A stretch of DNA of 64,000 bases, taken from contig JAJGOT010000132.1 in assembly GCA_022457155.1 (NCBI GenBank), positions 600,001 through 664,000 on the forward strand, given 5' to 3'. The position numbers were made by a program, and so were the translations under genes. Positions within the stretch are counted from its first letter, which is position 1. Each line of letters opens with the position of its first letter. Positions 36,901 through 62,006 of the stretch are shown here, piece by piece. The DNA comes from Cladopsammia gracilis (taxonomy: Eukaryota > Cnidaria > Anthozoa > Scleractinia > Dendrophylliidae). The notes beneath the pieces are model-generated. The model made no database searches. It had not been told where the DNA came from and saw only the letters and a list, made by a program, of their open reading frames with translations.

Positions 36901-38225
36901 TCTTTCACAGAAAGTTTCAGGTTTTCACGATGTTTTGCTTCCGATTTACAAAGGTTTTAAATGTGTCACGCAATTCGTAACGTTATAACAGATAAGCTGT
37001 GAAAATAAACAAAATTGAATCAGCTGAAAGTTATTGTTTGCATTATAAGTGCTTACAAGCCCAGTTAATGGAGCTTATAACAAATACAATATGTTTTGAT
37101 TTGATTTTTGGTGTAATTAAGACTTTGAATTTTTGGCCGCCATCTTTAATTTGTGCCCCTGAGTGGGGCACAAAGATGGCCGCTCCATTCATTTCTTACT
37201 AAAAATGTCTAATACTCGTTCGCCTATAACTCTTGAACGAAATGCTATGGCGCTTCAAAATTTGGCCAAGATGTGTAGTTTTAAACTCTCTACAATTCCA
37301 TAAACATTTTGGATTCGAAATCTATTGTTTAATGCTCCTGAATTTTGATATGACGTAAGTGAAAGCCAAGAATACTAAGGAAGAGAAGCTGTCAAATCAG
37401 TGACGCAAATGCAAACATGTAGTGAAACGTGAGTAGATATCTACTCACGCGTGAGTCGTTGTTTTAACTCGCGTGAGTAGATAAGCCGTGTTTGAACATA
37501 AAGAATAACAATAAAAAATGTAAGCGTTAGTTAATGACGGACAAAAATTAAACCAACTACCAACTGATTACCGTCCAATATATAAACCAGACATAACCCA
37601 CAATTCCTTGATTTGCTCTGACGTAGGATTAGCTCTTAAACCATCAGATTTGGAACCTCTTCAAGTTGGCCGATTTACCTTATCAACTCAGTTGATGAAA
37701 TCAAATTTTCGTGGTCCAAACAAATAAAGTACCCGAACATTAAAATCCCAAATTAAGCCGAGTTTTCACCAGCGACATAAGTACAAACGCAAGCACAACA
37801 GGATTTAAAGGAGCTCTGTCGGAAGAATTTGGACGTTTTGGGGTTACATCTGCCCAAAATTAAAACTAAATCCGTTTGCCATATACTGTTTGGGTGGTCA
37901 GTGTGTATGATAAAAAACTCAAAATAATTGTATCTGACCTAAAACTTCAGAGTAAAATGATTGCGAATAATTAAAAGACTTTTTAAGATTCGACTAGGTC
38001 CCAAAGGGGTCCAACAAAAGGCTAGTAAGCCACAGGGAAAGGCTGACGTTCATTCACAGCGTTCGTGGTAAGAGTGGAATGTAAAGATTCCAAGAACAAG
38101 CGTTCACTCCACGTGATACAATACCCAGATACAGTTATTTTGAGTTTTTAACCTTTGTCATACATAAATTGTTTATAGAACACAAGTGGGAGATATAAAG
38201 TGAATTTTCGATGAGAGAAAAAATC

Positions 38226-38690
38226 ATGAGTAAACTGAACTCAAAATAATGAGTAAATCGTTGCATCCACAGTGACTCATTACATTGAGTAAATTGTAGC
38301 AGACATGTTGAGTAATTAATACTCATGGGTTTGAGTAAGTTTACTCAGATTGAGTTAACTTACTCAGCAGTATGAGTTAAAGTACTCAGCTATTGAGTAC
38401 AATTAACTCAAATTAAGAGTAAAACTACTCAAGAGAAATGCATCCATACTGACTCTTTATTTTGAGTAAACTGGTTATCTACTCATAAATTGAGTAAAAA
38501 TAACTCTACATTTTGAGTAAAATCGAAATTTACTCAAACACTGAGTTGAAATAGTACTCAAGGTATTGAGTAAATTAAATGAATAGAAATTACTCTACAT
38601 ATTGAGTTATATAAAAAATTTACTCACACAGTGAGTTTAAATAGTACTCAAGGTATTAAGCAAAGTAAAACGTGCTCTTCGTTTTGAGCT
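38226..38690 (+). repeat. Left TGAGT/ACTCA subterminal repeat block
   Basis: Roughly thirty short TGAGT(AAA) or (TTT)ACTCA motifs alternate in both orientations over about 460 bp, spaced 8-25 bp. Part of the array is itself tandemly duplicated: two copies contain TAGTACTCAAGGTATT. The arrangement looks like arrayed protein-binding sites rather than simple satellite. An inverted counterpart lies at 61330-61655. Confidence 0.8.
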
Positions 38691-39414
38691 ACATACAAAA
38701 TTGTACACTTTCTGATAACTTCTTAACATAACGTTGAAGTGATCATAAAACACGATAAAAATAGACATTAAAAACTATTTTAATGGGTTACCTAATACTA
38801 TTGCTTATTTTCCTTTTTAAAATATAATATATTTAAACAAAATAATTATAATTGTAGTATTTTCTCTTTCATAAATACCCCCAAAAACAAACTAAATGAG
38901 GAAATGACAAATCTATTTTTCTATTCCAATTTTTGCTAATTCAGTCTGCATGGCCCATCTCAAAATCTTTCTTATACCATGCAACTGTGATAAAGGAATG
39001 GCAAACCTCATACACTTTATATTAAATATAGTTTTTTGATTATCCAAAAAGATAATGTATGAGTGATATTTCATCAGTAGATTGTTGTACATGTTTAAAC
39101 TGCAACTGAAACATTTTTTTGTTTGTTTTAAATAATTTTTTTAGAACTGAAAACAGTAGACAGACTCATTTTTACCTTAGCTACAGTGCACTAGGGCTGT
39201 CATTAACATACCAGCATACAAGATTAAACCCGTAACACACTAACAGGTATTGTGGGTATGTGCACTGAATGGGACCTAACAAACAGGTTATCTTAAAAAC
39301 TGCAATTACTGTACAAGCAACCCATTTGATATGGGTATGTAATTGTAAAGGCAATACATACACGTAACTCAAATTGTAATGAAAGCCTTGCTGCACTAGA
39401 GAGCAGTTTTCAAC

Positions 39415-39655
39415 TGAGTGTTGTAAAACCAAAACGAAATAACTTTGACTCATCACAGAGGCAGATAATCCAATGAACCAATCACAGCTCGAAGCATAAA
39501 TACATGTAGCGGGAAAACATATGCTAGTGAGTCGTGACTGGTGTAATTTTACTTCTTATTGGTTAATAAAGTGGCAGCATTTTTTTAACCAATCACAGCA
39601 CAGCAATATTGTATTGCAAATTACTTTTGACGCTCAATTGAAAACTGCTCTTTAC
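39415..39655 (+). repeat. Copy of the 1200-type dispersed repeat
   Basis: Shares GTAAAACCAAAAC, CAGATAATCCAATGAACCAA and ACCAATCACAG with 1200-1690. It abuts the SAMD3-like stop codon and so probably forms part of its 3' UTR. Confidence 0.7.
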
Positions 39656-39673
39656 AGCACATGTTATTGTTAA

Positions 39674-42600
39674 TTAGTGTCCTTCTGATGAAACATTACA
39701 TTGTAATTCATGAAGAGAATTGATAAATGTGATTACGGAAGATGGCAGCTTTTTGCCATCCTGTATGTGCAAAATGCATTTTTGGAGATACAAAAAAAAG
39801 TTTGTTAGACCAGGAGGATAGTTGTACATAAACACATAGTATGCTGCCAAGAGAGCAAGAGCTGACTTAACAAGCGAGGCTTCAAAACTACAAATTATCT
39901 GTTTGTCAGCAGCCAGGTGGACGTTTCCTGGAGACATCAAGCTTCCAGTAAAGATCAGGAAGGGAAAGGCCTTTTCCCTACTGCTGGCAACAGTTTTGGG
40001 GTTGGTTTCTTCCTGATAAAGAAATATAATAAGGGACTTTAGTACCCTACAATATTTTAAAATCAGCCAGGGTGTGGGTGTTTGAAGTTGCTGTTAAGGT
40101 AGACACTTTTTTGTCTCAAAATACAGTTGTCTGTACCTGGAAATGCAAATAAGGATACACGAGCAGGGCTTGAAAAAAGTCTTGTCCGATTGTCCGGGAC
40201 AAGAAAATTTTCCCCACTTACTTGCCCAATGGGCAAGTATACGTACGAGTGACCTGTGAATTTATCTCAACTAACAATTTATTTATCCTTGTCCAGGCAA
40301 GTAACACTTAAGACTTTGAGCAAGCTGAATTTTTTCCCGAGCCCTGATGAGGGTGGTTGCTCAAGTTATTTAGTATTATTAAACACCAGTACACTGTTAA
40401 GTTATTTTTTTAACAACCAGATTTCTGCATTCTGTATGGTGTAATATTAATAAAACACTTTAAAAAAATAAACATTAATTACAAGCAATCATCTATATGT
40501 ACAGCTGCAAGCTTAATGACCATTATCATATAGAATCCTGTTAAACTCTTTAGCCAAACACCAAACTGTCAGTAGATACGATACTATTTATGTATGCTAC
40601 CTACAGTTCACTTAAAAACTGGATGTGACTGCTTTTTTATTTGAAACCTATCCGTTTCATGTTTTCTGAACCCATGACTGTTGTACTCATGACAGATCCA
40701 ACATTTAATTTTAGATTTAGGTATGGGCAATTATACTTACAGAGATGAATTGTACAAAATCTTTGTGTTGGCATGCCCCAGCCTTTGCCTGTAACAGGAA
40801 TGGCAAAACTGCCATTGCAATCTCAGACTTTTCATCTGGAATAATAAACAGTACAAGTACATGTAGTAAGATATGTGTGTTTCAGATATATTTTGCTAAC
40901 TTTATAATACAATATAAAAAATTAATGCCATTCTAAATGCAATATAAAATTTTTTAAGGCTTATCTTTTTTGCTCCACAAGACACTTGGATAACTTTATT
41001 AATCTATCATTGATTGAAGTCATCTTATTGTAATAAAGGGTTGTCGTCCCTTTTCCCTTCAAAACTCTTCACTGCAAAGTTCCAGTTCCATTGTGAGATA
41101 CACTGTTAAGATGGCTCACCTTAACATGCAGGGATGTAATTAAGGGCCAGTGGTCAGGAATTTTCCCTGGTCAACTTTGTACACTTCTGAACCCCAGCTA
41201 CCTTCATAAACAAACAAGGCAATGCTACTAATGTAGTTTTTCCCCTGGCTACTTTTTCCATTTTCCATTTACTTCAAAAAACAGCTGTAAACATACACCC
41301 CAGTTAGCACCCATGTCGGCATGTAAGAACCCTTTGTGTTAAGGACCCCAGGAGCATTGATGCGATGCGGTTTGCATTAAATTCATTTTTTACTACAACA
41401 CATCTATGTGCTGATAATAATACAGTAATTTTATATTTTGTTATTCTTTTACCTGCAGAGGGTTCCATATCAGAATCATCCTCAAACTCACTTTCTAGCA
41501 TTTTAAGGTATATCTTCACTTCTTCTGAGGCTTTTCCTTTTTTACTTTTGGCCATTTCAATTATACCATCTGATACTTGATCCAAGTTGGCCTTAAAACT
41601 GGTCAAAATACTGGTTCCCAAGCCCAGCAATCTTTCAAATTCTGCCAAAATCTGCCAAAGTGATGTACATGCACCAGTTAGAGATTGATACAGGAATCTT
41701 GATCACAGAATAGCAGCAAGGGTAAATATGGTGAACATACAGTGAAACCTGTATTAAGCGGACACCCTCGGGACCCTTGCTAGTGTCCGCTTAATAGAGG
41801 GGTCTGCTGAATACAGGTTTGTTTTACAATTAATACGGGAAAAAAATTTGGGGACCTAAGCAGCTAGTGTCCACCTAATAGAGGGTGTCCGCTTAATATG
41901 GGGTCTGCTTAATACAGGTTTCACTGTATATTTATTTAACTTTCAAGACGGAAGAGTAATTATCTGTAAAAAACAATAACAAAAAGATTTCTGATGGAAT
42001 AACACAGCAACATTGACATCAATGCATAAATCAGGGAACAAGGGCACACATCCATGTCATAAAGTGGTTAAATGACCTAGCAATATTTTAATATATTCTG
42101 GTGGTTGCAAACCTTACAGGTTAGCAGAAATGGGGTGACTAGTTACAGTACTAATTCTTGACCAACAAATCCATTCAAGTGGTGACAGTGAAATAAAAGA
42201 AAAACCCAATAAAAAAATTAGTTGCTGCAACCAGTCTTTTGCTGTAAACAGCAAATTATTGAGTTAGTTTCTAAAGAAACTGTGGTGCTGTGTTGATGGA
42301 GGGGAGCAACATGAAAATTTTCTTTTATCAACAGAGTTGATAAGGTAAATCGGCCACCATAAAGGGATTAAACAGCTGTTTTGAGTGCTAACCTTACATG
42401 TATAAAACACACAAACAAAAAAAAAACAGACATGTACACTCTACCTGAGATAAATCAAAAAGTGCAGGATATTCCACTTTCAGCTCTGCTATTGGAGTCT
42501 GCTTGTTCATGAGCCGTCTTCTATCTGGAAACGTCAACATCATGCGATTTTTGATTTTTTCCTTGTCAGGATTCCTTTTTCGCCATTCAGCCTCAAGAGC

Positions 42601-45600
42601 CTCTTTATGTTTTTTCATTGAGGCTTCATCTTCCCCTTCTGGGTAAGGTGGCTCCCAGTTTAAGGCACCACGCCTTAACTTTGACGAAACAGGTTTGGAA
42701 TTTCCCTCCCCTGTTTTCATTTTCTTTCTTAAAATAACTTCAGGATCAGAAGTTAAATGCTTTCGTTCATTCCTGAACTTTTCATACAGTTGGACAAACC
42801 AAGAATCCTGAATAGAAAAAAAAGGAACAGAATGATATACATTGAGTTATAAGAATGGACACTAAATAAATAATGTAAAGTTGGATACCGGTAAGCCACA
42901 TTCATGCTCTTAATGTATATGTTGTGGGTCAAAATTTGCCTTGGTTCAAAATTTTACTTTCCTTTTTGTTTTTGGGTATGAAAATGCATGATAATGTATG
43001 ACAATGAGTTTAAACAAAGGAAAGTAAATTTTGAACCAAGGCAAATTTTGACCCACAACATATACACACAGGGTAAACCACTGGGTAACATAGGTTCTCT
43101 TGCAGCTTGCTTTGATGAGAAATCAAGGCAGCTGGCCAATAAAGGCCTATTAGTCTATAAAATCACATACATCTTTAATGATAGTCAATTGTCACTTTAC
43201 CACTGATCGCCACTTTTCACCCACTGATAATTAAGTTATTCATCGAGGACGAGCCGAATATGAGCTGATATATATAACCAACGAGGTGCCGCGCAGAGTT
43301 GGTTATATATCAGCTCATATTCGGCGAGGCTGAGATGAATAACTGGTTTAGTAAATTTTCAAACACTCAAATAACTGGAAATTGGAAAAAAAATTATTTC
43401 CGCTCCAAAAAATACGACTGTCACATCAGTGAACAAGTGTCACATGACCGCTTCGCAAATCGAAAGCGAGTAAATGCTAACAAGCGGTGAGATCCCCGAG
43501 CTTCAAAGGATTTTCTTGTGCGCTTCTATAAATAACTTGGCCGAAGGAGGATTAAAGAGTGTAGGAAACAGAGCAAATTGTAAATCTCATGCTGTTTCCA
43601 GTCAAACTCTCTTTGTCTCTATTATAATTATTCTGACCTGCCGCGACAGCTGAACTTGTCAAAGTGGTAATAAATATTCAAAACATGCAGCCAGTTTCTG
43701 ACCCAGTAAAAAAAAAAAAAACAAATTGCAGTTCGGTTACCCTTGCTTTCCCTGTGTTCCAGGCTCAGAAGATATGGATATGTAACATTTAAATCTAACA
43801 ATAAAAATTATATGACTATTATTATTCATGAACGGACAATAAAACACTAAGCATGGTGAGCACATTGGGTCTTCCTTTTCGTAATGAGTCATTGCATCTG
43901 TCTTTGTTTCCTCGACTACCAGCTTTATTGTTTGACAAAAATTGTTTCATCAGTGATGTATTTCCTTTTTTGTCAGATTTTCATTTTGCAAAGTGCAGAT
44001 TTTCATTTTCCCACTTCACAAAGTGCAGATTTTCCCACTTCACAAAGTACAGATTTTCCCACTTCACAAAGTACACATTTTCCCACTTTGCAAAGTACAC
44101 ATTTTCCCACTTTGCAAAGTACCGATTTTCCCACTTCGTTCCAATTTGTTTTGCAATGAGCCTACTTTATTCTGTAAACTAGAATGCTTCCAAAAAACAC
44201 TTAACTTGCCCAGGATAGAATCTATTAGCCTGACAGAAAAATCTGCTACATGTAGCACATTACTGGACATTACTTTCTTTGCATGCTGCTGTCAGCTTCA
44301 AATTTTGCAACTTACAGTAGTTGCAAAATTGCATAATATTTTTGTACTGTCTGCATGTGGGCATTCAAAACTTTTTAAAGCAAATTTAAATTCACTGTAC
44401 GAGCTAATTGTTACATTGCTAAGGCAAACAATATAAAGCCCTAACTTACATGTCCGGTGCCAACTGTCTTGTCCTGGAGGGCAGGATATCTCCTGACAAT
44501 CAACTCTGCAACAGCAGTGAGCTGCTCTCTTGTGGGATATCTACAAAAGCCATTATACACACATGATCACTGTGATAGTATAGAGTGCATGGTCTGAGAA
44601 TATGTAATTGACTAAAAAAGCACAACTACACAGTGTCTCCACTCATGTCTTCCTAAAGCACCCAGATAGGTCACTACATAATTTTATACCGTAGGATGAC
44701 TTTCTGGCAAATTTGCGGAAGATTAAAAGTGAAAAAACATTTTGCTCTTACTCTGTTTATAAGCCAAGAACTTGAATTAATATTTCCATTGTACCAAAAA
44801 AGACCTCAGGCTAGTTCATTAACATAGAAATGTTGAATAGGAGTTAATAAAATTCTCATGTGAACCCAGAGGAAAACATTTCACAGTAATAATTGTGGCG
44901 CATGTACAATTAATTGTATGTATGCCTGAACTGACCACACCACATTGCAAGGCTACCAGCTGTTGCAACATGTTGTGTGCATTAAATTAGGCTATGTCTA
45001 CACTATACCAGATTCTTGCGTCAGCACGAAAACCATACCGGATAGGCCTTTCGTTCACACATGAAATGCTAGTTTCGGAACAATTTTTGTTCCGGAGCGC
45101 CACTGCAATGGGGCGCTCGTGAAAGTGAATCGTCACATATCCGATAGATTCTCGTGCCACTTTCTGGGGCAGTGTGAACAGGCGATCGAACCGAACCATA
45201 GCGGAAGTCAACAACTAGGAGCGAGGATTGAAACCCACTGAAAAAGAAGTAAATATCCAGTTCTGGGTCGTTTCTGTTCACACCAGGCCGGAGTGTTTTT
45301 CATGTAGACATGATAAGCTATCCAGTATAGTGTAGACATAGCCTTAGAAACAGCCCTGATTGAGTGTCAGTTGTTGTAAATTAACTAAAAACTGTAACCA
45401 TTTTGGTAAAAATCTGTTACAAAAAGCCCTAATTTATGCTGTGAGCTGAGTCTTGCTTCCTACAGTTCAATGGGGGAAAAGGGATCACCCTTGTGGGTAT
45501 TGCAGGACTGTATCATCAGAAACGTTAAAAATATTATTGTACAGTGAAGCTTGAAGTTTTTTTTAAGTTTGTTGTTCTTGTTACTTACAAAGTATAGAGT

Positions 45601-48600
45601 GAGAAATGCTCATATAGACTCCTTATGATAGACATGCGCTGTTTACTGGTAATTTTCTCAGCATCATCTTTTAACGCCCGTTCCACATCTGGCCGAAAAG
45701 CAGGTAATGCAAGAGAAGCAGGCCATGGCTTTTTTGCATTTAAAGTCACGCCGTCTGCCTTGGACTGACCTGGACTGACTGCAGGGCGCTTCCTTTGAAC
45801 AGAGTTGCACCAAGCATAGATTAACAAATGTATCAATATGCAGAAAAAATAATGCTTATGCAGAGGCAGAGACATCTGAACTACTGCTGGGCAATAATTA
45901 TTAATAGTGTCATGTAAATGTGTTATTGTTACTTTACATGACTATCAGGCCATAGTATTTCATATGGCACAGGACATAGTCTGGGTTCAATGATATATTT
46001 TCTGTAGTATTGAGTACTCTGACAGTATTCAACAACTCCACCTATGTATTGGAAAGCACATATACTTTTGAAATGGCTTATTGAAAATTTAGAGCTCCAG
46101 TTCTTATACCTTTTTATTACATTGTCAAGAATGATAATATAGAGATACTTGTACAGTAATTAGTTACATTACTCTCACTCCATGCCAATGAAGACAGTGA
46201 CCATAAAACCAACCAATGTGCATTCCTACAGTGCATTTTATTGACCTACAATTTTTATTCCTGCTACAAGAAAATGTGTATTAGTACTTCTCCTTCTGTC
46301 TCAAAATTAATAATACCCTTTACAGTGCTGGAAATAACAGTCGACTTGTTCATCAGACATTGTCTGACCAAAATCCAAAATTAAATTATGCTCGGACATG
46401 ATGACTGAGCATAAAAATTACTTAGCTTTTGCCTTGAAAGTCTTGTTAACTCATCGCATTTGATTCCAAAAACATTACAATAAGAATTTACATTGCTTGT
46501 ACCACTTATTTTCAATTGCTGTAAAAGGATCTCTTGAATAAAAAAAATTCAGAAAAGGCTGTGTCATTTGAAATTTATGTGCTACTTCTTATAGCACGTT
46601 GTGTATGCTTACAGATTGTGTCTTAGGAAAAATCCAAAATGGCGAATGTCCGACCAATTTTGTAATATGTCCGATCAAAGGACACATGTCCAGCTTCGAA
46701 ACAAGAAAAAAAAATTTTCCAGCACTGCTTTATGGCATAAATTATAGCCCATTTTCTATGTAAATTTACTGTTCATTTTCACTAGATGCCTTTTATGTTG
46801 TCCTGATAAAGTTTTCTGCTCTCTCAAACATATCGTATTTTCTTGATTAAATGCCGGGCCCCGAATAAACACCGGGTATAATAGAGGAAGTTGAAAGTAA
46901 GCTCCTCAAACGTTTATTTGTGGTATAATAAACTTAAGATTTAAGGGCAAGGTACACGGCTGCCAAGAAAAACGAATAATAACCCTTTCTTAAAAAATGG
47001 GCGGGCGAGAAAAAACTGCTGATTCAAGAAACGCCAGGTCCACTAGGCCAAGTTTGAAATGAACACCGGGGGTGTTTAATTGAGAAAATACGATAATACT
47101 GGAAATGAACTTAATTGGACACATCCTTTATCTTCTAAAACACCTTATAACCACAGCTGTGGTTTTCAATTGACTGTCAAAAGTAACATCTGTAAAGTCT
47201 TGGTTTCATCTTACAACAGCATTTAGCAACTGATTAAGAACAATGCCACTACCCCTACAGATACATGTACAGTTGAACCCTGCTTGCATTAAAAACACCC
47301 ACTGCATGCAAATAACAGAATTTTTTTCATACATTTCACCCATTTAAGTAGGGATATTGGGGCAACAGACCACCAATAAAATGAATACATACAACTTAAA
47401 GTTCATCTTCCTTTAATATGAACAAATCAGTTAATTTTAGGAATAAAAGTGTCTTAAAATTCACTTCTTCACCATCCAGACAGTTTTTGTGGTCGCTGCG
47501 AGATAATTTATTATGGTGCCCCCATCAATAGGATTCAACTGCATTTCAATCTATGGAACAAGAACTGGTAGATTTAATACAAGACTCAACAGCTCGGATG
47601 AAGTACATCTTACTGAAAATGGTTTTAAACAATGCTTTGCAAGCTCCTTGAGAGGCATGTACCTACTGTACTTATAAAGACTGGCTATCACTACCCCAAC
47701 AGAATAAATATCACTCTTAATGGACTGTGAACAGGTTCCCTCAATTACTTCAGGTGCAATGTGGAAGTGTTCCTTATAATACTTAGCTTTTTCATCTCTA
47801 GAAAGGACTTTCCTTTTCCCTTCATTAATTAAACATGCCTTTCCAAAGTCAATGAGCACGGGAGAAAACAGACCATTTGAACTCATTACAATTACAATGT
47901 TATCATTCTTAATATCATTATGGAGTATGCTCTTGTTATGTAGGTAGCAAAGGCCATCAGTAAGCTGAGTAATTATGTGAAGCCAGTGCTCAGAACCTAA
48001 AATAGAGACCCCTACATGTTTATCCTTGCTAATTACTTTTTGGAGAGTAACAGCCTCAAAACATTCATTTCCATAGTATTGTGTAACAATAAAATATGGC
48101 CTCTCTGTGATATTCATGCCATAAATCAATGGTAAATTTATATGGCAGCATTTGCTTAAGTATAATGCTTCTCTTTCAACAACTTTAGCTGCAGTAGATG
48201 CTTCAAAATATTTGACTGCCACTGGAGATGATCTAAATTTTTTTATATGGACAGTCCCAAATCTTCCTTTCCCAATTTCTCCAGCTCCTTTAATTTCTTC
48301 TAGCAATAAAGGATCTATCTTTAAAACTTCACCTTTTTTGTTACTTATTGCCTGGCTACTGGTACCATGAAAAACTAGCCTAGCATTTTTAATCTTTCCT
48401 TTTTCTTTCTCTGAGACCCTCCACATTTCAAAATATTTCTCTTTGATGGCTCTTTCAACTTTGACCTTGTTACTTAAGCATTTATTTTCCTCTTTTAAGC
48501 CTTTAATCAGTGCAGTCAATCCTTTCTTTAATTGCTTTGTTTGTTCTTTTTTTCTTTTGTTGCGAGCCAATCGCTGTCTTCTTTTACTTTCCAATGATCT

Positions 48601-50408: not shown

Positions 50409-50725
50409 GATTCGGTTTTTTTTTACAAAGGACGAAACGAAAAGCAAATTCTATTTGAAGCAGCGAAGTCAAAGAGCGAGAGATCGATAACCACAGTGAA
50501 ATTGGTTTTCATACCGTTAATTTTGCGCGCGATCTTTAGAGATCAATGATTGGTTCGCTACATCACATGGGATCTACGTAGTATCTCGTAGTATTACGTT
50601 TTGTTTACCCGCTGTTCTACGGCTGCGCAGTTTATGGAGCAAAGCATTGACGTCACGCTTTCTGCTTCCCTGGCGTTTGATCGGCGTTCGGTGCATTCCC
50701 GCAATGGCGGGAAATAGGTGATTTA
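50409..50725. promoter_or_regulatory. Divergent promoter spacer of the giant element
   Basis: A 317-bp interval separates the SAM gene's ATG (50406-50408, minus) and the transposase-like ATG (50726, plus). It lies close to the midpoint of the proposed element. It must carry both 5' leaders and probably both core promoters. No clear TATA box is seen. Confidence 0.5.
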
Positions 50726-51459
50726 ATGGCGTTCCCGTGTTGTTACTGTTCCAGCTTTGCTGGTAGTACATTTAAAAAACTCCTTAGTCATATAAAGTTT
50801 ATTCACAGTCATGAGCCGAATTTTTTGATAACATGTGGCGATTGTGGTCAATCATTTCAGAAGTTCAACTCATTTAAATCTCATAGAGGGGGACATTGGG
50901 GGGTAGCCCATACCGCAATACCGCAGCATAAAATCAAAAATACCGCAATACCGCAAGGAAAATCGACAAAATACCGATATCGCAGGTATGGATATCAGGC
51001 GGGTACAAATATTTTTGGAGGGATGTAGGATAAGCGATCTAATTACGGTCAGTTGCACGTTTTACGTAGTCGTACATGTAGTAAGACTTACCTCGTAGAA
51101 GGAACTAAAGCTTTGTCAGCAAATGACCACGTGACACTCGTATAACAGTTCCAGGTTGCATACCGAAAATGTTAATTGCTCTCTACTAGTGATATCCCTT
51201 TGTTCTTTTAACACTCCGAATGTGTGGTTCCAGAAAATATCCATACCCCCTCCACGGATGATCTTTCAGTTTAGACCCCCCCCCCCCCCACCCCACTGGA
51301 ATTTCCGTTCCAGGGGGGTTCTTTGACGAACCCCCACCCACAGGAATTTCCGACTTTTCTTTTTACCCTTTTCAAATTCACAACTGTGTCATACTTTAAA
51401 AAAACGTTCACTTGGTTTACACACAACATTTGTGACCTCTCACGCGAAAACGATACTGA

Positions 51460-51735
51460 CGGCTATCCGTTCGAGCCGTTCAAGTCGTTCAGTCTTGCCG
51501 TTGATCAGCCGTTCACGAACGGCAGGAGGCCGTTCGAACGGCTGTGATTTCGTAATTAGCCGTTTAAAAAATTTATTCAGCCGTTCGAACGGCTGCTGCT
51601 AGCCGTTCAAAAAAAATCTTCAGCCGTTCGAACGGCCGCTGCTAGCCGCCGTTCAAAAAAATCTTCAGCCGTTCGAACGGCTAGGGCTATCCGTTCGAAA
51701 AAAAAATATTCAGCCATTCGAACGGCTAATGGTTT
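51460..51735. repeat. Palindromic CCGTTCGAACGG tandem array
   Basis: At least four copies of GCCGTTCGAACGGC-like self-complementary units separated by A-rich spacers (AAAAAAATCTTCA). It lies inside the 2.47-kb inserted element and can form cruciforms or serve as arrayed dyad binding sites. No coding potential. Confidence 0.8.
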
Positions 51736-52216
51736 ATTCCGGAATCCGGAATTCGGAATCTTGAGCGTGAAATCCTAAAAGCCGGAATGAACCAAAACAT
51801 GAAAAATAAATAAATATCCGTTTAATATCCGTTTAATTTTTCGTACTTGACATCGCGTGGCGCAGTTTTCCTATTCCTTACTTTACCTTTTTACGCCAAA
51901 ATTTTGACTATAGCGTGACCTGATTGAAAAACGCACGCTGTGGTCTAGACTGAGTATAGTGCAACACATCGCGCTTCGTTGTCAAGCACATTCACAGGCT
52001 TAGCCAATCTATAAACAAGGTAGATGAGAGTGAAACTAAGTAGTCGCGATTTTAAATCTGTCACATTCCATCATGAGTTTATGAATGACGCTATTGTTAT
52101 ACGGTAGAGATTACACACGTCATCTAGGGATCTCCAGGAGTGTTAAGGATGATTTTTCAGGTATCCCATGACGCCTAACGCGTAATAATCGATCCTGATG
52201 TGTCAAATTTCCTGCG

Positions 52217-52983
52217 ATGGCGAGTACAAGTGGTGAAATTTTACTGACCCTCGCGAGACTTTTTCTTCGGTTCCAACGCGACAAAAGGTGAATCAAATCG
52301 TTATTTGGTTTCTATGTACATTAAAGTTTACTTATATATCATTTGATCCGAGCCTGTTTGCCTATGTATCGCAATATTTTGGTCTTTGTTTCGAGTGGCA
52401 TACAAGTCTGATTCGCTTCGTTTCTTTGTTGTGTTTTAACCCTTGATCTGTTTTGCGGTGTTTCGTTTTTAATCCTGGATACATTAGCATATAATTACGC
52501 CTGATAGTGCCCGGAGAGTGACTCTTTTAAATGCAATACAAGGTCCCCTAAAGTCCTCACGTTTTGTAGAAATTTATGAACGTTGAATTTGGGTCAAAAT
52601 CGGCGCCAAAACGTTGTTAAAATTCGCTTCGATCGCGTAGATTCTTTGCTTTGGTTTTTACAGTCGAAGGAAATATCGTATTTAGTGCAATTGCAGCTTC
52701 CTTTTATGAGTTTGAACAAATCATATGATCGTTTAACACTTTCCTTCGGTGCGAAGCTAATAAATCGCTTGATGTTTATGTTTTTACAAGTGATATGGAA
52801 GATGGCAATATTTTTTCATCTGCTGGAAATCGAAGTCTTAATTGTCATCGATGCCTTTCAATTTGTCCGTGTTCAGAAACAGACAAAGTCGCCGCTCTCT
52901 TTACTTTTTGGGGAAGCAAACGTGTACTTAATACCGTTAGGAACCTACAACAAGCCAGATTGGACGATGTGATATATGTTTGA
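52217..52983 (+). CDS. Candidate small two-exon gene inside the inserted transposon
   Basis: ATG at 52217 in a strong context (GCGATGG). Exon 52217-52287 ends at AAAAG|GTGAAT, and exon 52791-52983 begins after TTTTTACAAG. Both sides are phase 2, giving 264 nt (87 aa). The second exon has a Cys cluster (CHRCLSICPC) and ends DDVIYV. I recognise no family. It may be a captured host fragment or the start of a longer gene; a chance frame is possible. Confidence 0.3.
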
Positions 52984-54129
52984 CTGCTAAAATCTACGCA
53001 GTGGATGATGCGCTCGCTTCCAGCAACTCCATGGCAAATGACTGGTCACGCAATTTTAGTTGATGATATAGATCATCGCGTTGCATCATGGGATACCTGG
53101 AAAATCCTCCTTTGGAGTGTTTATTTCATAATACTATTTGGGGAATGACAGCAAAGGTCAGCAAATCATCAGCCCGTCAAATACCGAAATACCGCGCAAA
53201 AAAACCTGTTTCACCGAATACCGCAGTCCGAAATAATCAAATACCGCATACCGCAGTCTCAGACAATACCGAAATACCGCGTTCAAAAATAAAATTTACC
53301 GAAATACCGCATGAAAAATGGACCAATACCGCGATACCGCAAACCCCAATGTCCCCCTCCTCATATTCAGAGAAAGCACAACACGAGGAATCTTGCAGAG
53401 AGACCAGAAAATGAAGACATCGACGCAGACGACGACCCTGTGGACGTAAGCTTAAATTCAAGTGACGATGAGTACGGTTGTGAGGATCATGTGGGGCACA
53501 TTGATGCAGAAGACGAACCCATGAACTTCGTGAATAAAATGACGAGATTTTTAGCTTTGTTTATTTTAAAAACCAAGGAGGAAAATCAGTTAAGCCAGCA
53601 TGGTATCGATGCAGTTCTTGACAGCACAGGGAATCTGGTCGAAAGTAACTTGGAGCACCTGAAGGAGAAAATCACAACATGCTTAGAAAGAAACGGCGTA
53701 GATGTTGCAGATGTGGAAGGTTTATGTGATGTGCTTCAACAGCCAAGCATTTTTGCTCAAGCCAGACAACCTTTGATAAATGAATATCAACAAGTGCAGT
53801 ACTTTAAGAATAACTTTAACTTTGTGGTAAGTTTTTATAACCTTATGAAAGCTTTAACATGCTTATTAAACTATTGTCAGCTTGCGTTGTGCTTTTGCAT
53901 TGTGGTCTTAAGTTGAAACAGCAAGTGATACATGCTGTTTTTTTTACTGTCAAAACTTGGTGGAGCTGATCCATTTAGTCATTGAGAACTTAATGCACTT
54001 GGTGGTCCAAAAAAAGCTCTATGGCCTTTCATTGTTAAAATATAATTATAGTCAAATATAAAATTATAGTCAAATTATAAATCAAATATAATTTTAGTGT
54101 ACAAAAACTGGATATGAATATCGCCTATT

Positions 54130-54300
54130 TTCGCTTTTAAATTTCCTGCGCACCGCCATTTTGAATATTTATGACGTATTACGGTTGTCCAATTGTTGCA
54201 TACAAAAGAACTTCGATTCTTAACAATAGCGGCAACCGTAACACGTCATAAATATTCAAAATGGTGGCACGCTGAAAATTTAAAAGCGAAAATAGGCGAG
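54130..54300. mobile_element. Foldback MITE
   Basis: Arms TCGCCTATTTTCGCTTTTAA and complement, continuing through CATTTTGAATATTTATGACG. In the intron before transposase exon 54394. Confidence 0.85.
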
Positions 54301-55391
54301 TGGCACTTACATGTACGTATATAGCTCATATATGGGAGTACCCCCCCCCCCCCCCCCGCCTTGTATTGTAATAATGTGTCATACTATCAACAGGAGCCTG
54401 AGGAAATAGTGTTGAGTCAGCGGGCAGAGTATAGAGTTATCAGAGGGCGACAAAAACTGAGAATTGTGAAAGAGATGTTTCACTATATACCCATTTTGAA
54501 AACCCTTCAGGCTTTGCTCAATCAGCCAGACATTATTTCAGAGGTATGTTGATCTTGCTGAACAGTTCTTATGATTGTTCGATGAATTTTTTGCTTCCTT
54601 TTCATAGGCAGAGAGCCCACCACATGACCCGTGGATAAAGTGTCTACAATAATTTTGCTCATATGCACAGTGGTGCAAAGTTGTTTTGCTTCAAATAATA
54701 TTATTGTTCTGCTCGTATCCTCTGCAATAGCAACCTAATTGTTGCACTGTTTTAATACCAGTTAGGAATAAATATAAATATTGCAAAACGAACTGAGTGA
54801 CCGAATGATAAAACAATTATTTTGTTCAACCTTATCCACAAATAATTCTTAAATTATGAAATTGACACATTTTCTGAAGTATTTGTGTTCAAAATTGACA
54901 CCCTAAAGTCAACTTAATGGATCAAATCAGATTACATATACATGTAAGTCCCCCTTCTTAGGCAAATTTCATCCCTCAATTTTATCTGTTGTTCTATCTA
55001 CGTCGTATAAAGCTATCCATTAAGCACGCAGTAATCAAGGTCCCACCTTAAAGCCCAAACTTCAAATCAAATTACTGAGAGTGGATATGCCGATGCATCA
55101 GTACATGTAATAGAGGTCAAATATCTGACACATTTTTTGCACTGTATAAAGTAGTTTTTGTGTCACTGACTGTGCCTTTCATTTAATAAAAGGTGAGAAA
55201 TCCTCATCCAAGCACTGATGGCTGCTTAAGAGATTTTTGTGATGGTGAGGACTTCAAGTCACATGAGCTCTTTGGACATGATCCACATGCACTTGTCTTA
55301 CACTGTTACTACGATGACTTTCAAGTCACTAATCCTCTTGGATCAAAGACCAAAAAACATAAAATAGGTAAAGAAATATGGCGAAGGTTAA

Positions 55392-55480
55392 TACAGTAGA
55401 ACCTCCACTAATGGCACCTCTCTACAACAGCCACCTCTGTCCACAGCCGCCACTTTTTTCGGTCCTTGCATTCGACACAG
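55392..55480 (+). mobile_element. pogo-like repeat fragment
   Basis: Starts TACAGTAGAACCTCCACTAA, with GCCACCTCT and GCCGCCACTTTTTTCGG motifs. The opposite end is not found. It begins 25 bp after the donor of transposase exon 55193-55367. Confidence 0.5.
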
Positions 55481-55742
55481 ACATTAAGGTGAATAAGAGA
55501 AGGCAGTCCCAGCATACACAAAAAGTGTTCAAATTTTTCTACAGGACAACCAATGCAAAATTAGGATTGAGTTTTTCAAATGCAATTATTACCGGTATTA
55601 TTATTATTATTGCAGTAAAACTATCTGTATGCACAGTGTTATAAAGCGACACAGGGCGCAAAGCGTAACCTGTGCGCAAGAGCGAAACTTAAAAAAAAAA
55701 TAAATAAATAAATAAGTTACTAAAACCTGATATCGACAAATC

Positions 55743-55788
<46 letters not shown>

Positions 55789-57744
55789 ACGTATATTATT
55801 ATTACATTTTGTCCACTATTTAGATTTCCCTTCCTACAGTTGGGGTGTTTAGATTAGGTAAAGTTCATGCCTGGACATTTTAAACTACAGTATGTTTTAT
55901 ATCTTTTCAGGAGCTTTTTACTTCACTCTTGGAAATTTGAGTCCGCAGTACCGTTCAGTTGTCAACATTATTCAGCTTGTAGCCCTGTGCAAAGCATCTC
56001 TTATTAGTACTTATGGAATGAACAGAATTCTGCAGCCTTTTGTTCGAGATTTAAACTTACTTGAATCAGTAAGTATATGTACATGTAATAATTTTTTTTT
56101 AATCTGCATTAAGGGTACATTTGTATTTTTTTTAATGACACATGTCTCATGCAGCTTATTTTGATATTTTAATATACTACTTTCAGTCATTTTCATATTG
56201 ACATTCTTGTTTATTTCTTTTACATGTATCTTTGCAGGATCATGGTGTGACCTTCCGGTTGGAGGGTCAAGACAGGTTATTTAGAGGCAGCATTGGTCCT
56301 TTCTCCGATGATAACCTGGGAGCTCATGCCATTGGGGGATATGTTGAAAGCTTTACTTCCCTGCGAGTTTGTCGAGTTTGTATGGGAACAAGTGATGACA
56401 TCCAAACTAAGGTAACTAAATTATATATATAAATATATTTTTAATCTTACTGGTATGGCAAGGCTTCTGCCCTATTCCCCCATGTGCGGAAATTTTAACA
56501 GAACTGATGATGATAGGGGGAAGCTACACAGCATATGAATGTCCTGTAGTTTTTGAACCCTATCATGAACTAACTGTTTTCTTTTTTAAGTTCTGCAAAA
56601 TAAAACAGGTACCTTGAGATAACTTTAGATTTCATCCATTTTGTCAGTGTTGTAATAACTATACTTTCAAACTTAAATATAGTAAGTAATACTAGATGAA
56701 TATGTATGGAAATTTAACAAGGTGAACTACATGCACAATATTGATGTTGTATAGTTATGAAGAACAATAATTGCAATGAAGGTTATTAGCATTCCGATTC
56801 AATAGTATTTCTGTATCACTGATACAGAATAGCTGTTCTGAAATTACAAACCTTCATTAATTTGTTATTTCCTTTGTATTTTCCTTATGAATTTAACATG
56901 TATTAGTGAATTTTACAATAATTTTTACATGTATTTATAAAAACTGGAAACAAGTTAAATTCATTCATTCTTTGGCAATTTTTATTCATCCAATTTTTTT
57001 CTATGTATTGATCTTAGTTTACAGAGAATCAATACCAGCTAAGAACAAGAGTTGCTCACAACAGGCACTGTCAATTAGTTCAGGCTGATCCATCCTTAGC
57101 TTCTGCCTATGGTGTTAAGAGGAAATCTATCCTTAATCATTCACGGTACTTCCATGTTGTGGATGGACTTGACCTTGATGTGATGCACGATCAGCTTGAA
57201 GGAGTGCTACCACTTGAAGTTAAGCTGTTGTTGAAGAAATACATCAGAGAAGAAAATTATTTTACACTTGCCACCCTAAATGAGAGAATTGCAACGTTTG
57301 ATTATGGACCACCAGACATCAGCAACAAGCCAAGTGCAATAAAGCCACAGGCATTATCAAGCGACTCTACATCAATGAGTCAGTCAGGTACATTGTCAGT
57401 GTAGCATAATTTTATAGAGTACAATTTACTGACATAAATATTTAACCAAAGAAAGCCAACAAGTGTAAATTATCATTTTCTTTCTTCGATACCATCAAAA
57501 CAATCACACTTTTTTAGTCTTCACTGCAAAAAGTAAAATGATGGTAATACATGTGTTGGAGTTGGGGAAACAGGGGAGGGGCATTTTGTGCATACAGCTT
57601 TCTGAGTTGTTGGAGGTAAAATATTGGGTGATTTTACGTTTCTCTTTGAGTGCTAATACTACATGTACATGTTCTTCCTTCACTAGCACCTTTATCTACA
57701 ATTCCTGATTTATAAGTCAGATGCTGTATCTAGACTGCCTGGGT

Positions 57745-58055
57745 TTAATACTCCCATATAAAAATGACGGGTGGTGCTCATCGTTCCTTTTAGGGGTCAA
57801 AATTTGTAGATTGGTAGTGCTTAGGATGCTAAAATCTAAAATGACCACCATTAGAATTATCCCGTTACCATTTAGGGTATGAGCCGAAAAAATATGACGG
57901 AATATGACCTGTGTTGTTTTCGGATTGGTACCTCTTGGGGGTAAAAATTCATTTCAGCCACAACCCATCAAATGACATTTCTGGTACCTTTTAGGGTGTT
58001 TTTTGAAAATTTCTGATGAGCACCCCTGTCAGTTTTATATGGGAGTCCTCCCTCC
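57745..58055. mobile_element. MITE-like repeat with TATAAAAATGACRGG ends, copy 2
   Basis: Same family as 36155-36505: CCATATAAAAATGACGGGTG, TCTAAAATGACCACCATTAG, TTTTATATGGGAG. Fragments also lie near 9640-9950, 25470 and 54325. In a transposase-like intron. Confidence 0.7.
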
Positions 58056-59940
58056 CCAAACCCCAGGTTAGACTGCTCTTGTACATGTAAGTGATAACTT
58101 TTATTTCACAAGGGTTAAAGTTATCATTTAATTGCAAGAGTCAACTGTACTATACATTTGTTAATTGGTTATATATTGTTAGCTGCACAGATGTGGTGCC
58201 TGGCAAGAAATCTGCCACTTCTCATTGGGGACTTGATTCCAGATGGTGATGAACACTGGAATAATTTTCTTTGTCTTCTAAAAATTGAAGACATAGTATT
58301 TGCACCAGTGACAAGCACTCAGCTGGCAGCTTATCTAGCAGTTCTTGTTGAACAGTACCTTGATGAATTTAAAGAGCTGCATGATAGATCTCTGATTCCA
58401 AAGCACCACAACATGGTCCATTATCCAAGACAAATTGTCAGGTAAATAAAAAATTATAGTAAATTAATTGCTCTTTAATCAGCACGCGCCCGAAGGCCCT
58501 TCTTTTTGAGGCCTTGCATCAGTTGTCACAAGGAAGGATGAGTGTTAAATTGCTTTGGCATGTCTGTTATGTTGTTTAATGTGCTTTGCTTTGACTAATA
58601 AAAGCAGCATGCTGTCTATTGTACATTTGCCCTTTATCTAAATTGCTTTTCCTGTTTACCATATATATTATTATACTGCTATATATTTTGTCATCGTCAT
58701 ATTTACATCCAGCTTTCTTTCGAAACCAGCCCATAACAGTACAATAATCTATGTAATCCAACATAAAACAGTCGAGGGTTTCCCGTTCGTCTAGCCCCTC
58801 CTGCATTTGGGTACAGGAAATCCCACATGTTGAGCCGTCATAATACAAACAATTATGTAGTTTTTATCTACATGTAAATATTTAACTAAACCTTGGCTTT
58901 GTGTTTTAGAAGAGGACCACTGGTAAGAAACTGGGCAATGAGATTTGAAGCAAAGCACAATTATTTCAAGAGGCTCGTTGACAACATCCATAACTTTAAG
59001 AACATTACTTACTCTTTGGCTAAGCGTCATCAGTCATTGCAGGCATATCTGCTTCAAACATCAGCTGGAAATTTCTTACGAATGTCACTTGAAGTTGGGC
59101 CAGGTACTGGTTATTACAATTCTACTTTATTATTGTTACTGTTACTTTCAAAAATACTTCTACTTAATAATAAATCTTCTTTATGAAATAACTTTAATAC
59201 ACTTTATGCATACAGTAATGTAATATAAACCCTTTACTGGCAATTCCCTCAAATTTCATTATTTTTAATCAACACCAGAGGTTTGCAAAAGTTATAACCC
59301 ACATATGCAGAATGGTTTGTTCAGGTACTACTTGCTTGCCATAAAACAAATTTTATTGTAATGACCATAGCATAGTGACCATGTACCCCAAAGTTAGTAC
59401 AAATGTTGTTGCATGCACAAAACAGCACATTATATACATATAACATATGTATATACATATAACCAAAAATGATTAAAGGATAGTAATGGTCTGACTATTT
59501 TATAAGGCATTAAATATATTTAACTCATGTACTTTTTCATTCCCTTAGGAGGGAAGTCTACTGTTGGTGATTGCGGCCTTGAACATGAGTTGCGAGAGAT
59601 AGATCCCTCAATAACCGGGGAAAGCGTGCTTACACGGTAACCAAAAATGATTTGTATCAACTTAGCATTTAAGTGTTCAAATTTAAATTTAAAAGCCACT
59701 TTTTTCTCATCCTAATAAAAGATACTTAGGTTCTGGGTTAGAGTAACTTTTATAGGATGCAAACACAGATTCAAACAAGAGATTCTGACAAGTTGTTGTA
59801 AATGGTTGACTTGGCAATTTTTTCAAGATTTAACACTAGCTGGCTGGCATGACAATGCTCAGAAAGAACTCACTAAAACTCTGAGGTGAAGAAATAAAAA
59901 AGCAAGTTATTGCACTGGAAGGTGGATTTGGTAGCAAGCT

Positions 59941-60062
59941 GGGTAGTTTCTTGGTGTTGGAGATGTTAAATCACCAAATGGCATAAGACAAAAGATTCAA
60001 AAGACAATAAACAACACTATAGTAATTAACAATTATAGTTTCTGCAGCACCAAGGAATACCC
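59941..60062. mobile_element. MITE with GGGTAGTTTCTTGGTG ends, copy 3
   Basis: Ends GGGTAGTTTCTTGGTGTTG and CACCAAGGAATACCC. Flanks GCAAGCT/ACAAGTT match at 5 of 7 positions, so it is older than copies 1 and 2. In the last transposase-like intron. Confidence 0.75.
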
Positions 60063-60091
60063 ACAAGTTGGCTCAGACAAGACTGGTGAAC

Positions 60092-60094
<3 letters not shown>

Positions 60095-60139
<45 letters not shown>
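60095..60139. repeat. (TA)n microsatellite
   Basis: About 22 uninterrupted TA units in the last transposase-like intron. Confidence 0.95.
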
Positions 60140-60142
<3 letters not shown>

Positions 60143-61329
60143 TTTTATGTCAAAATAAATTAATATAAAATTGATGTTTCTTTTGTTGATTCATTTTAGG
60201 ACTTCATGGGCCAAGGTTTATGGAACCAAATATGCACGAGGCTCTGTGGTTATTGTTGGCTTGTATCATGGAGTTCCTGTTTTAGGAAAGGTGGATCAAG
60301 TGTTAATAGTTGATGGGGAAGTGGTCATCTTAAAATACAAGAAATTAAGAGTCTTGGAGTTTGTCAGCCATTTAAATGCTTATAAAGTTGTAGAATTGAA
60401 TGAAGTAGCCTGCATCAAACAAAAACAACTCCAGGATTTTCATCCTCTTAGTCTATGCAAAGGCTTTGGTCCATTCGCTCAAGAATTGTTTGTTGTTTTG
60501 AGGTACAGGGTGGACTGTTTGTAATAATGGTTGTAAGCTTTTGAGAGGAGGACACCGGGTTTTGTGGTGTCATGGTTTTGGCATTTCTTTTGTGCAATGT
60601 GCGAACGTATCTGCTTCCCAGGGCCAGACAATTTTCCCGTCAGGCCTGTGTATTCATCAGTGATTTATATACTTGACTTGCCTGCGAGCAAGTCATTTAT
60701 TTATTTTTTTGGAGGGGGATATATTTTGTAGAAAAAGTGAGGATAATTATATTACAGTATTTGTTTTTTTTTTAAATGTTCCATTCAGGTTAATATAATG
60801 GTCAAAACGAAAAAAAAAATGCCCTCTCAAGAATGCTTGTTCAGTCCTTTTGCAGCAAATGATGGGATGCATGCAAAAAAAATCTATAATTTCTGTTAAA
60901 ATTAATTGCTATATTTCTTGCCTCAAGGGTCAGGAACTAACTTTCATATACAACTCTATTTTTCCCTGTATACTTCTACATATTTGTATGTTTTCAAGCC
61001 CTAAGTAATGTTAAATAAAGTTAAACTTGATAGAATAAAGAATGATGTAACTGTTAAAGCAGGTGACGTAGGGAAACCGTCACAACCATGTAAAATGTTA
61101 CCTGTACACAAAAACCTGTATTATTTAAATTTCAATTTGTGTATATATTTCCCATCAAATTTAAACATGCATTAAATATCAATGAACTTTAAACTTGGTT
61201 TTGGAGTCATTATAGTACACTTGTGCATGGGTTTGTGTTGTGAAAAAAAATATATTATATATATCATATATATATATATATCATTTATGTACCCTTCTGT
61301 AAACAAATCTAATTGAAGAGGTACACTTT

Positions 61330-61655
61330 TTAACTGGATGAGTATTTTTACTCATTTGTTTGACTCACAGTCAAGTTACTCAAAATATAGTGTTGTTTTA
61401 CTCACTATGTTAAGTAAAAGGATTTACTCAATATTTTGAGTATAAGTGAGAAGCACTTACTCACTAAGTGAGTAACTGTTTACTCACATTTTTGAGTAAA
61501 TATGAATCGTACTCCATTAACTCAAAATAACGAGTTGTTACAACTCATTAGGTTGGGTAAAATATCTAACTCATATTCCGAGTAATCTTACTCAATATGT
61601 GGAGTAAAATGGACACTTTACTCAAAAAGTGAGTCATTTTAACTCATTTTGAAAA
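61330..61655 (-). repeat. Right TGAGT/ACTCA subterminal repeat block
   Basis: About twenty TGAGT/ACTCA motifs in both orientations occupy roughly 325 bp, about 0.8 kb beyond the transposase-like stop codon. Reverse-complemented, its outer edge aligns with the outer edge of the left block. It ends at an A/T-rich stretch and GCTGTG at 61668-61673, the proposed right terminus. Confidence 0.8.
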
Positions 61656-61693
61656 ATGCTTTTTTTGCTGTGCGAGTTTTCAAGGTCAAGCCC

Positions 61694-62006
61694 AAATCAT
61701 ACCGTCCAGAAGGACGTCGGACACCTTATTGAGACTTATATAACGGAGTAACTGGTTAGCTTTCAGTTGAGGTTAGGGGTAGCAGTTTATATAGTTAAAT
61801 TTAGAATTAAGCAACCCGAGAAGCTAGGTGGTACAGTGGTACGGTAGGCTATGTAAACCAAAGCCTAGCTGAGGTCACAGGTTCAATCCTGAGTGAGAAT
61901 TTTAGATTTTTCTTTTTTACACTTAAAAATTTATTGAAAATAAAATTCTAAGTGTCGACATTAAGTCTCAATAAGGTGTCCGACGTCCTTCTGGACGGTA
62001 TGATTT
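61694..62006 (+). mobile_element. 313-bp inverted-repeat element enclosing a tRNA-like SINE head
   Basis: Arms of about 46 bp run from AAATCATACCGTCCAGAAGG to its complement. Between them a tRNA-like segment (61815-61895) has A-box-like GGTGGTACAGTGG and B-box-like GGTTCAATCC. GCGAGTTTTC lies outside both ends (61672 and 62028). It sits 20 bp outside the proposed giant-element right end. Confidence 0.7.

Follow-up and report, generated by a model that had tools for sequence, protein, structure and literature searches.

RAG pairs a catalytic protein with a chromatin reader, the PHD of RAG2, and Transib/RAG transposons duplicate 5 bp of their target. Source text on the CMCT clade, which unites Transib with EnSpm, Mirage, Chapaev and Plavaka, lists CA..TG ends, target duplications of 2–5 bp, and C(2)C and H(3–4)H motifs among its features, and canonical EnSpm/CACTA elements have a 3-bp duplication in the passages cited here (PMC4158355, PMC2613891). 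Spm, according to the part of the second paper that deals with it, produces two proteins by alternative splicing; its repeats are bound by the second, non-catalytic protein, and TNPA acts in transposition (PMC2613891). Of two further systems, IS3EU elements carry an alpha-kinase gene oriented against the transposase gene, duplicate 6 bp of their target and have TAYGG ends (PMC12730594), and VANC proteins are described as anti-silencing factors that act on rapidly diverging tandem repeats (PMC10398659). Here we analyse a 64,000-nucleotide stretch of the genome of the coral Cladopsammia gracilis (contig C199, positions 600001–664000; hereafter the window), which contains what is probably a decayed giant DNA transposon of the CMCT clade, likely of the cut-and-paste kind, with a two-gene core: a zinc-finger DDE transposase and a SAM–kinase–SAMD3-like gene for a likely accessory factor.

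Results

An earlier note on this DNA had placed a mobile element between inverted TGAGT/ACTCA arrays at 38200..61673. The arrays are real: the left block contains 28 of these words (mean of 2.0 and maximum of 8 in 2000 dinucleotide shuffles) and the right block 18 (mean 1.4, maximum 6), and the remaining 500-bp bins of the window hold at most five each. Along the left array, the orientation of the word flips from one site to the next in 23 of 27 steps, and the spacing is 10–12 bp—about one helical turn—in 15 of 27. Counted as a longer word, GAGTAA occurs 15 times on the left and 12 times on the right, and GTGTAA not once in either array.

When the genome (878 Mb, 1469 contigs) was searched with both blocks, the left one gave at least 48 matches (40 of 71 candidate places scored) and the right one at least 40 (40 of 247 scored). 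For 28 of the 40 scored left ends, a right end in the same orientation lay no more than 40 kb away (27 distinct right ends), at distances of 6.2–24.6 kb; random placement would yield about 0.04 such pairs. We analysed the window and 14 fetched copies (L031–L044) chosen under a 10-kb limit, leaving 13 pairs, 11 of them longer than 10 kb and two shorter. All 14 copies end in CACAG[C/T]AAAAAAAGC and its inverse (CACAG..CTGTG), and all are flanked by identical 2-bp duplications (TA in six; CA, AG and TG in two each; CG and CC in one each). One of them, L031, also has a paralogous empty site: its joined flanks match an uninterrupted relative of the target repeat in C980 (82% in an alignment of 124 columns that spans the junction), and the junction holds a single dinucleotide, CA instead of CG. 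Given the paired ends, the duplications in 14 of 14 copies and the empty site, the array-ended copies are true insertions, and the mobility claimed in the note is borne out.

Homology with most other copies begins at 38218 and ends at 61672, so the limits of the element had to be corrected. Its right terminus (Table 1) has the 5′-CA..TG-3′ form; on the left, the expected CACAGC is not present and the window reads gatgagagaaaaaatcatgagt instead. The CAC ends proposed by analogy to CACTA elements are found in all 14 relatives and at the right end of the window element, and are missing at its left end.

The 14 relatives measure 7.8–9.7 kb, and since their main shared blocks are mostly 92–99% like L031, the family is likely fairly young. 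Three of them (L031, L036 and L043) were compared with the window by blastn and showed about 88% identity in 418 bp at the left end and 80% in 300 bp at the right. Each of the three also contains a 289-bp piece resembling window positions 48620–48905, which adjoin the kinase exon described below, hinting that the family descends from a gene-bearing element. Queries for the transposase, kinase, SAM and SAMD3-like parts matched none of the 14 copies (tblastn, by which a very distant transposase could be missed), and the copies therefore look non-autonomous by content; in L031, the one copy for which open frames were listed, the longest had 157 residues. Among the longer pairs, the ends at C275:554736–576430 are separated by 21.7 kb, a distance that fits a copy with genes; no match fell there among those listed by the kinase and SAMD3-like genome searches.

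Table 1. Features of the element in the window (strand as read in the window; a dot marks features without strand).
Feature	Position	Strand	Description
Left subterminal array	38218..38690	.	28 TGAGT/ACTCA words; shuffle test and genome matches
SAMD3-like C-terminal exons	39674..45792	-	Six exons, all joins in frame: 45792-45589, 44540-44450, 42807-42445, 41651-41453, 40835-40741, 40012-39674
Protein-kinase exon, basic N-terminal part	47551..48616	-	Pkinase, E 3.4e-27
SAM domain exons (50408-50330, 49632-49407)	49407..50408	-	SAM_1, E 5.1e-12
Spacer	50409..50725	.	317 bp between both start codons; predicted divergent promoter region
Transposase, first exon	50726..50886	+	Two C2H2 zinc fingers, interrupted within the second finger
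Nested element	50887..53358	.	About 2.47 kb; terminal inverted repeats AGGGGGACATTGGGG..CCCCAATGTCCCCCT; inside the transposase zinc-finger exon
Transposase, remainder	53366..60523	+	10 exons with GT/AG borders joining into 783 open residues; catalytic core, predicted BAH-like C-terminus
Right subterminal array and terminus ...GCTTTTTTTGCTGTG	61330..61672	.	18 words; shuffle test and genome matches

Two genes diverge from a spacer between the arrays. In an alignment of 30 of the 64 transposase homologues, D287 is kept in 27 (three gaps), D382, H613, H617 and E637 in 29 each (one gap each), C402 in 26 and C405 in 28. The window protein carries RVCRVC and HHNMVH as the corresponding motifs, so that the DDE core has C(2)C and H(3–4)H between its second D and its E, as in the CMCT clade. 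The transposase whose two zinc fingers and D-D-E core had been noticed earlier bears features typical of the EnSpm/CACTA-related clade. Against Pfam, the window protein matched no family at E values up to 1, whereas Transposase_21/tnp2 was matched by eight of the 30 homologues (best 7.1e-07); a transposase profile run against the PDB sequences returned 43 weak or zinc-finger matches and no transposase. A 61% identical relative has a predicted structure that matches the RAG1/Transib catalytic core, with RAG rows 9–14% identical in the VIA alignment, and that ends in a BAH-like domain. We accordingly predict, from this model, a RAG1-like core fold and a BAH-like C-terminus for the window transposase. 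Among named proteins, the closest relatives of the element's proteins come from the stony corals Montipora and Pocillopora.

The second gene had been described as SAMD3-like. A divergent SAM gene is indeed there, and it also contains a protein-kinase exon (1066 bp, ending in a stop) between the SAM and the SAMD3-like exons. The SAM exons are phase-compatible with both the kinase exon and the first SAMD3-like exon, and we therefore read SAM–kinase (a 456-residue model) and SAM/SAMD3-like (531 residues) as alternative products. Catalytic residues of the kinase are kept in 33–36 of 37 sequences (the window, C191, P0072 and P0078–P0111, with P0112–P0135 left out), and the kinase is predicted to be active. 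A sequence profile of the SAMD3-like part found no match in the PDB. In two Montipora predictions, a single chain contains SAM, kinase and SAMD3-like parts; neither has a complete kinase part, and P0073 holds only its beginning. The coral proteins P0069, P0065 and P0076, annotated as ‘sterile alpha motif domain-containing protein 3-like’, are relatives of the element's gene. Matching contig sizes suggest that transposase and SAMD3-like genes lie on the same chromosome in Pocillopora, and likewise in Montipora.

The divergent pair stood as the earlier note had it, but ‘exactly two’ genes did not, as a further element is nested in the transposase. Its flanks (TCTCATAG / CCTCATAT) suggest an imperfect duplication of about 7–8 bp, which we take to be as in hAT-like elements, and ‘taccgc’ repeats are found inside both its ends. 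With this insertion in the zinc-finger exon and the left CAC missing, the window copy is broken and not an active autonomous element; the term autonomous-type, used before, fits its layout and not its state.

Further loci were found through the SAMD3-like exons, which match at six places in the genome (10 matches; all 24 candidates scored), with C980 as a seventh by nucleotide match. In C408 and C980, the left array and some SAMD3-like exon sequence are retained at 80–92% nucleotide identity, and tblastn detected no transposase or kinase in 30 kb of each; blastn added short pieces only, some of them intronic or outside the element, which may be interspersed repeats. At C56, a SAMD3-like exon is preceded at a distance of 15 kb by kinase pieces on its own strand.

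The gene pair itself recurs at C191. There, the transposase side runs on the minus strand from 47216, with the fingers (53% identity over 53 residues) and pieces 31–57% identical to the window protein. The plus strand carries SAM exons near 47921 (read by eye in translation) and 48457 (tblastn), a 361-residue open kinase frame (53274–54356; 42% identical to the window kinase) and SAMD3-like exons that extend between 54673 and about 59925, beyond which an array follows. The array word of the window was absent from the 20 kb scanned at C191. Instead, GTGTAA—picked after k-mer counting in C191—accounts, with its complement TTACAC, for 16 words in 500 bp (mean 0.32 and maximum 3 in 2000 mononucleotide shuffles), against 0 for GAGTAA, so the array words of the two families differ by one base. 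C191 is a distant paralogue with the same divergent layout and an array beyond its SAMD3-like end. Because that layout is kept at about 40% protein identity, the SAM/kinase gene is likely a conserved working part of the element and not stray cargo.

Three observations concern the surroundings of the element. Palindromes of the form ACGTGAGTAGATATCTACTCACGCGTGAGT..ACTCGCGTGAGTAGAT, with a similar word, lie at window positions 37427–37490, left of the element and outside its ends. Outside the right end, a stretch near 61703 (accgtccagaaggacgtcggacaccttattgagact) recurs inverted at about 61963–61999, and this inverted pair, within 61673–62005, looks like the termini of another short element. Finally, window positions 61724–61895 recur in C408 (L026) at 89%.

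Discussion

On the features tested, we classify the element as EnSpm/CACTA-like within the CMCT clade. Short-word subterminal arrays at both ends are a feature of canonical EnSpm/CACTA elements; the CA..TG termini and the duplication within 2–5 bp, both seen in 14 of 14 relatives, are features of the CMCT clade. The short target duplication foreseen in the earlier note was found, but it measures 2 bp where canonical CACTA elements have 3 bp, and a canonical filing was dropped for that reason. Neither the 5-bp duplication of Transib/RAG nor the 6-bp duplication and TAYGG ends of IS3EU were seen in the relatives.

Compared with plant CACTA/En-Spm elements (maize Spm/En; soybean Tgmt*, 20.5 kb), the element shares CAC..GTG ends, subterminal arrays, very large size and a second function beside that of a DDE transposase (tnp2 in the plant elements). 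It differs, apart from the duplication, in the divergent SAM/kinase/SAMD3-like accessory gene and in the C2H2 fingers on the transposase; none of the CMCT lineages described in the source text has such a SAM/kinase partner. The closest working analogy would still be Spm, with one catalytic protein and a second protein for the subterminal repeats. With RAG1, ProtoRAG (BbRAGL) and Transib, the element appears to share the catalytic core fold, as judged from the modelled relative, whereas sequence identity to RAG is low and the reader-like BAH domain would here be part of the transposase itself; no RAG2-like gene was noticed in passing, in an analysis that made no search aimed at RAG2. As in the available account of IS3EU, kinase and transposase genes are oppositely oriented, but the kinase here belongs to the Pkinase family of Pfam and is not an alpha-kinase. 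The parallel to VANDAL/VANC, as far as the cited passages go, would be an element-encoded factor tied to fast-changing repeats in the element's own noncoding DNA (PMC10398659); superfamily and proteins are different.

In the mechanism we favour, the transposase is likely the enzyme that cuts the element out and inserts it, and the SAM/SAMD3-like product likely forms SAM oligomers along the arrays and helps to pair the ends. Regulation would come from the SAM–kinase isoform, through phosphorylation of the complex or of a host factor; the BAH-like tail would anchor the enzyme on marked nucleosomes, and the 8–10 kb relatives without genes were likely moved in trans.

Several observations weigh against this interpretation. 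The left terminus of the window copy is not recognisable, and its own target duplication is therefore unreadable; the right array has a looser pattern than the left (alternation in 9 of 17 steps, a span of 10–12 bp in 6 of 17); and the 14 copies analysed are the short ones. No second full-length copy with both genes and a sequence close to that of the window was found, C408 and C980 being truncated. In the genome-wide kinase search (100 matches, 115 of 307 candidates scored, most others looking like ordinary kinases), the next best match after the window's own was C191 at 42% identity, and hence no close copies of the kinase gene exist among the scored candidates. At C191, the match to the transposase stops at about residue 459 of 783, and the 30 kb analysed showed no GTGTAA array on the transposase side. 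The BAH match rests on the relative's model and lacks Pfam support in the C-terminal sequence, and the SAMD3-like part gave a poor structure model (predicted local distance difference test score, pLDDT, of 55), for which Foldseek returned no significant match. The earlier note had named arrays found mostly without these genes as an outcome that would speak against it. Its proposed search with the terminal blocks did recover paired ends, but none of the 14 pairs analysed matched the two genes and C408 and C980 retain the SAMD3-like side only; we explain this by non-autonomous derivatives, and the gene pair is present at C191.

That two host genes merely happen to lie between unrelated low-complexity arrays is very hard to believe. 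Such a coincidence would account for the unreadable duplication of the window copy and the lack of a second full copy, yet for the ends it is refuted by the pairing, the 2-bp duplications and the empty site, and for the genes it would turn both C191 and the Montipora proteins into chance. It is also improbable, if less so, that the SAM/kinase gene was captured once from the host and travels as a passenger. SAMD3-like proteins are annotated in corals, such kinases occur in many contigs, and the 14 common relatives analysed do without the gene; C191, however, retains order, strand, divergent position and an open kinase frame at about 40% identity, and C56, too, has kinase pieces before its SAMD3-like exon. 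On the C191 evidence we rejected passenger cargo as our principal interpretation.

Two other explanations grant the gene a function of a different kind, and each strikes us as possible though rather unlikely. The SAM/kinase gene could encode an anti-silencing factor like VANC, recruited to the element's own repeats to remove repressive marks and without a direct role in cutting or joining. A kinase is easier to picture as a regulator than as a structural component, and the one-base change of the array word between families recalls the rapidly diverging tandem repeats on which VANC is described to act (PMC10398659); the arrays, however, occupy the ends of the element, an arrangement shared with Spm, for which the cited passages have TNPA acting in transposition (PMC2613891). 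Alternatively, the two zinc fingers of the transposase may read the arrays, with GWGTAA as a word of about 6 bp, leaving the SAM/kinase gene to tune only the host response or timing. Two zinc fingers cover about six bases, which is the length of the array word, and the fingers are conserved between the window and C191 while that word changes by one base. What speaks against such a reader is that Spm repeats are bound by the second protein and not by the catalytic one, as far as the cited text describes (PMC2613891).

Returning to the two-gene transposon, a more elaborate version of it can be put forward tentatively, and we would give it somewhat less credit than either of the last two alternatives. 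Here, in a lineage of animal transposons, a RAG1-like enzyme with a built-in reader of histone marks (BAH) would act together with a back-to-back SAM gene that supplies, as alternative products, a filament-forming array binder and a SAM-tethered kinase licensing or blocking end pairing—a regulated, chromatin-guided machine. If true, a single protein would here parallel RAG1 together with the RAG2 PHD reader, with kinase control added.

In the open-licence literature (Repbase and subscription papers lie outside it), we found no description of a SAM-joined kinase as a partner of an EnSpm/CACTA-like transposase or of a BAH domain combined with a CACTA transposase, and no title linking SAMD3 to a transposon. 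Some coral ‘SAMD3-like’ annotations may be transposon genes. The presence of two families in one genome, with array words that differ by one base, offers a direct route to the array-reading protein, and a RAG1-fold enzyme with the predicted BAH-like tail would allow chromatin-based target choice to be tested outside the immune system. A conserved SAM–kinase partner, in turn, would mean that such elements carry a signalling step of their own.

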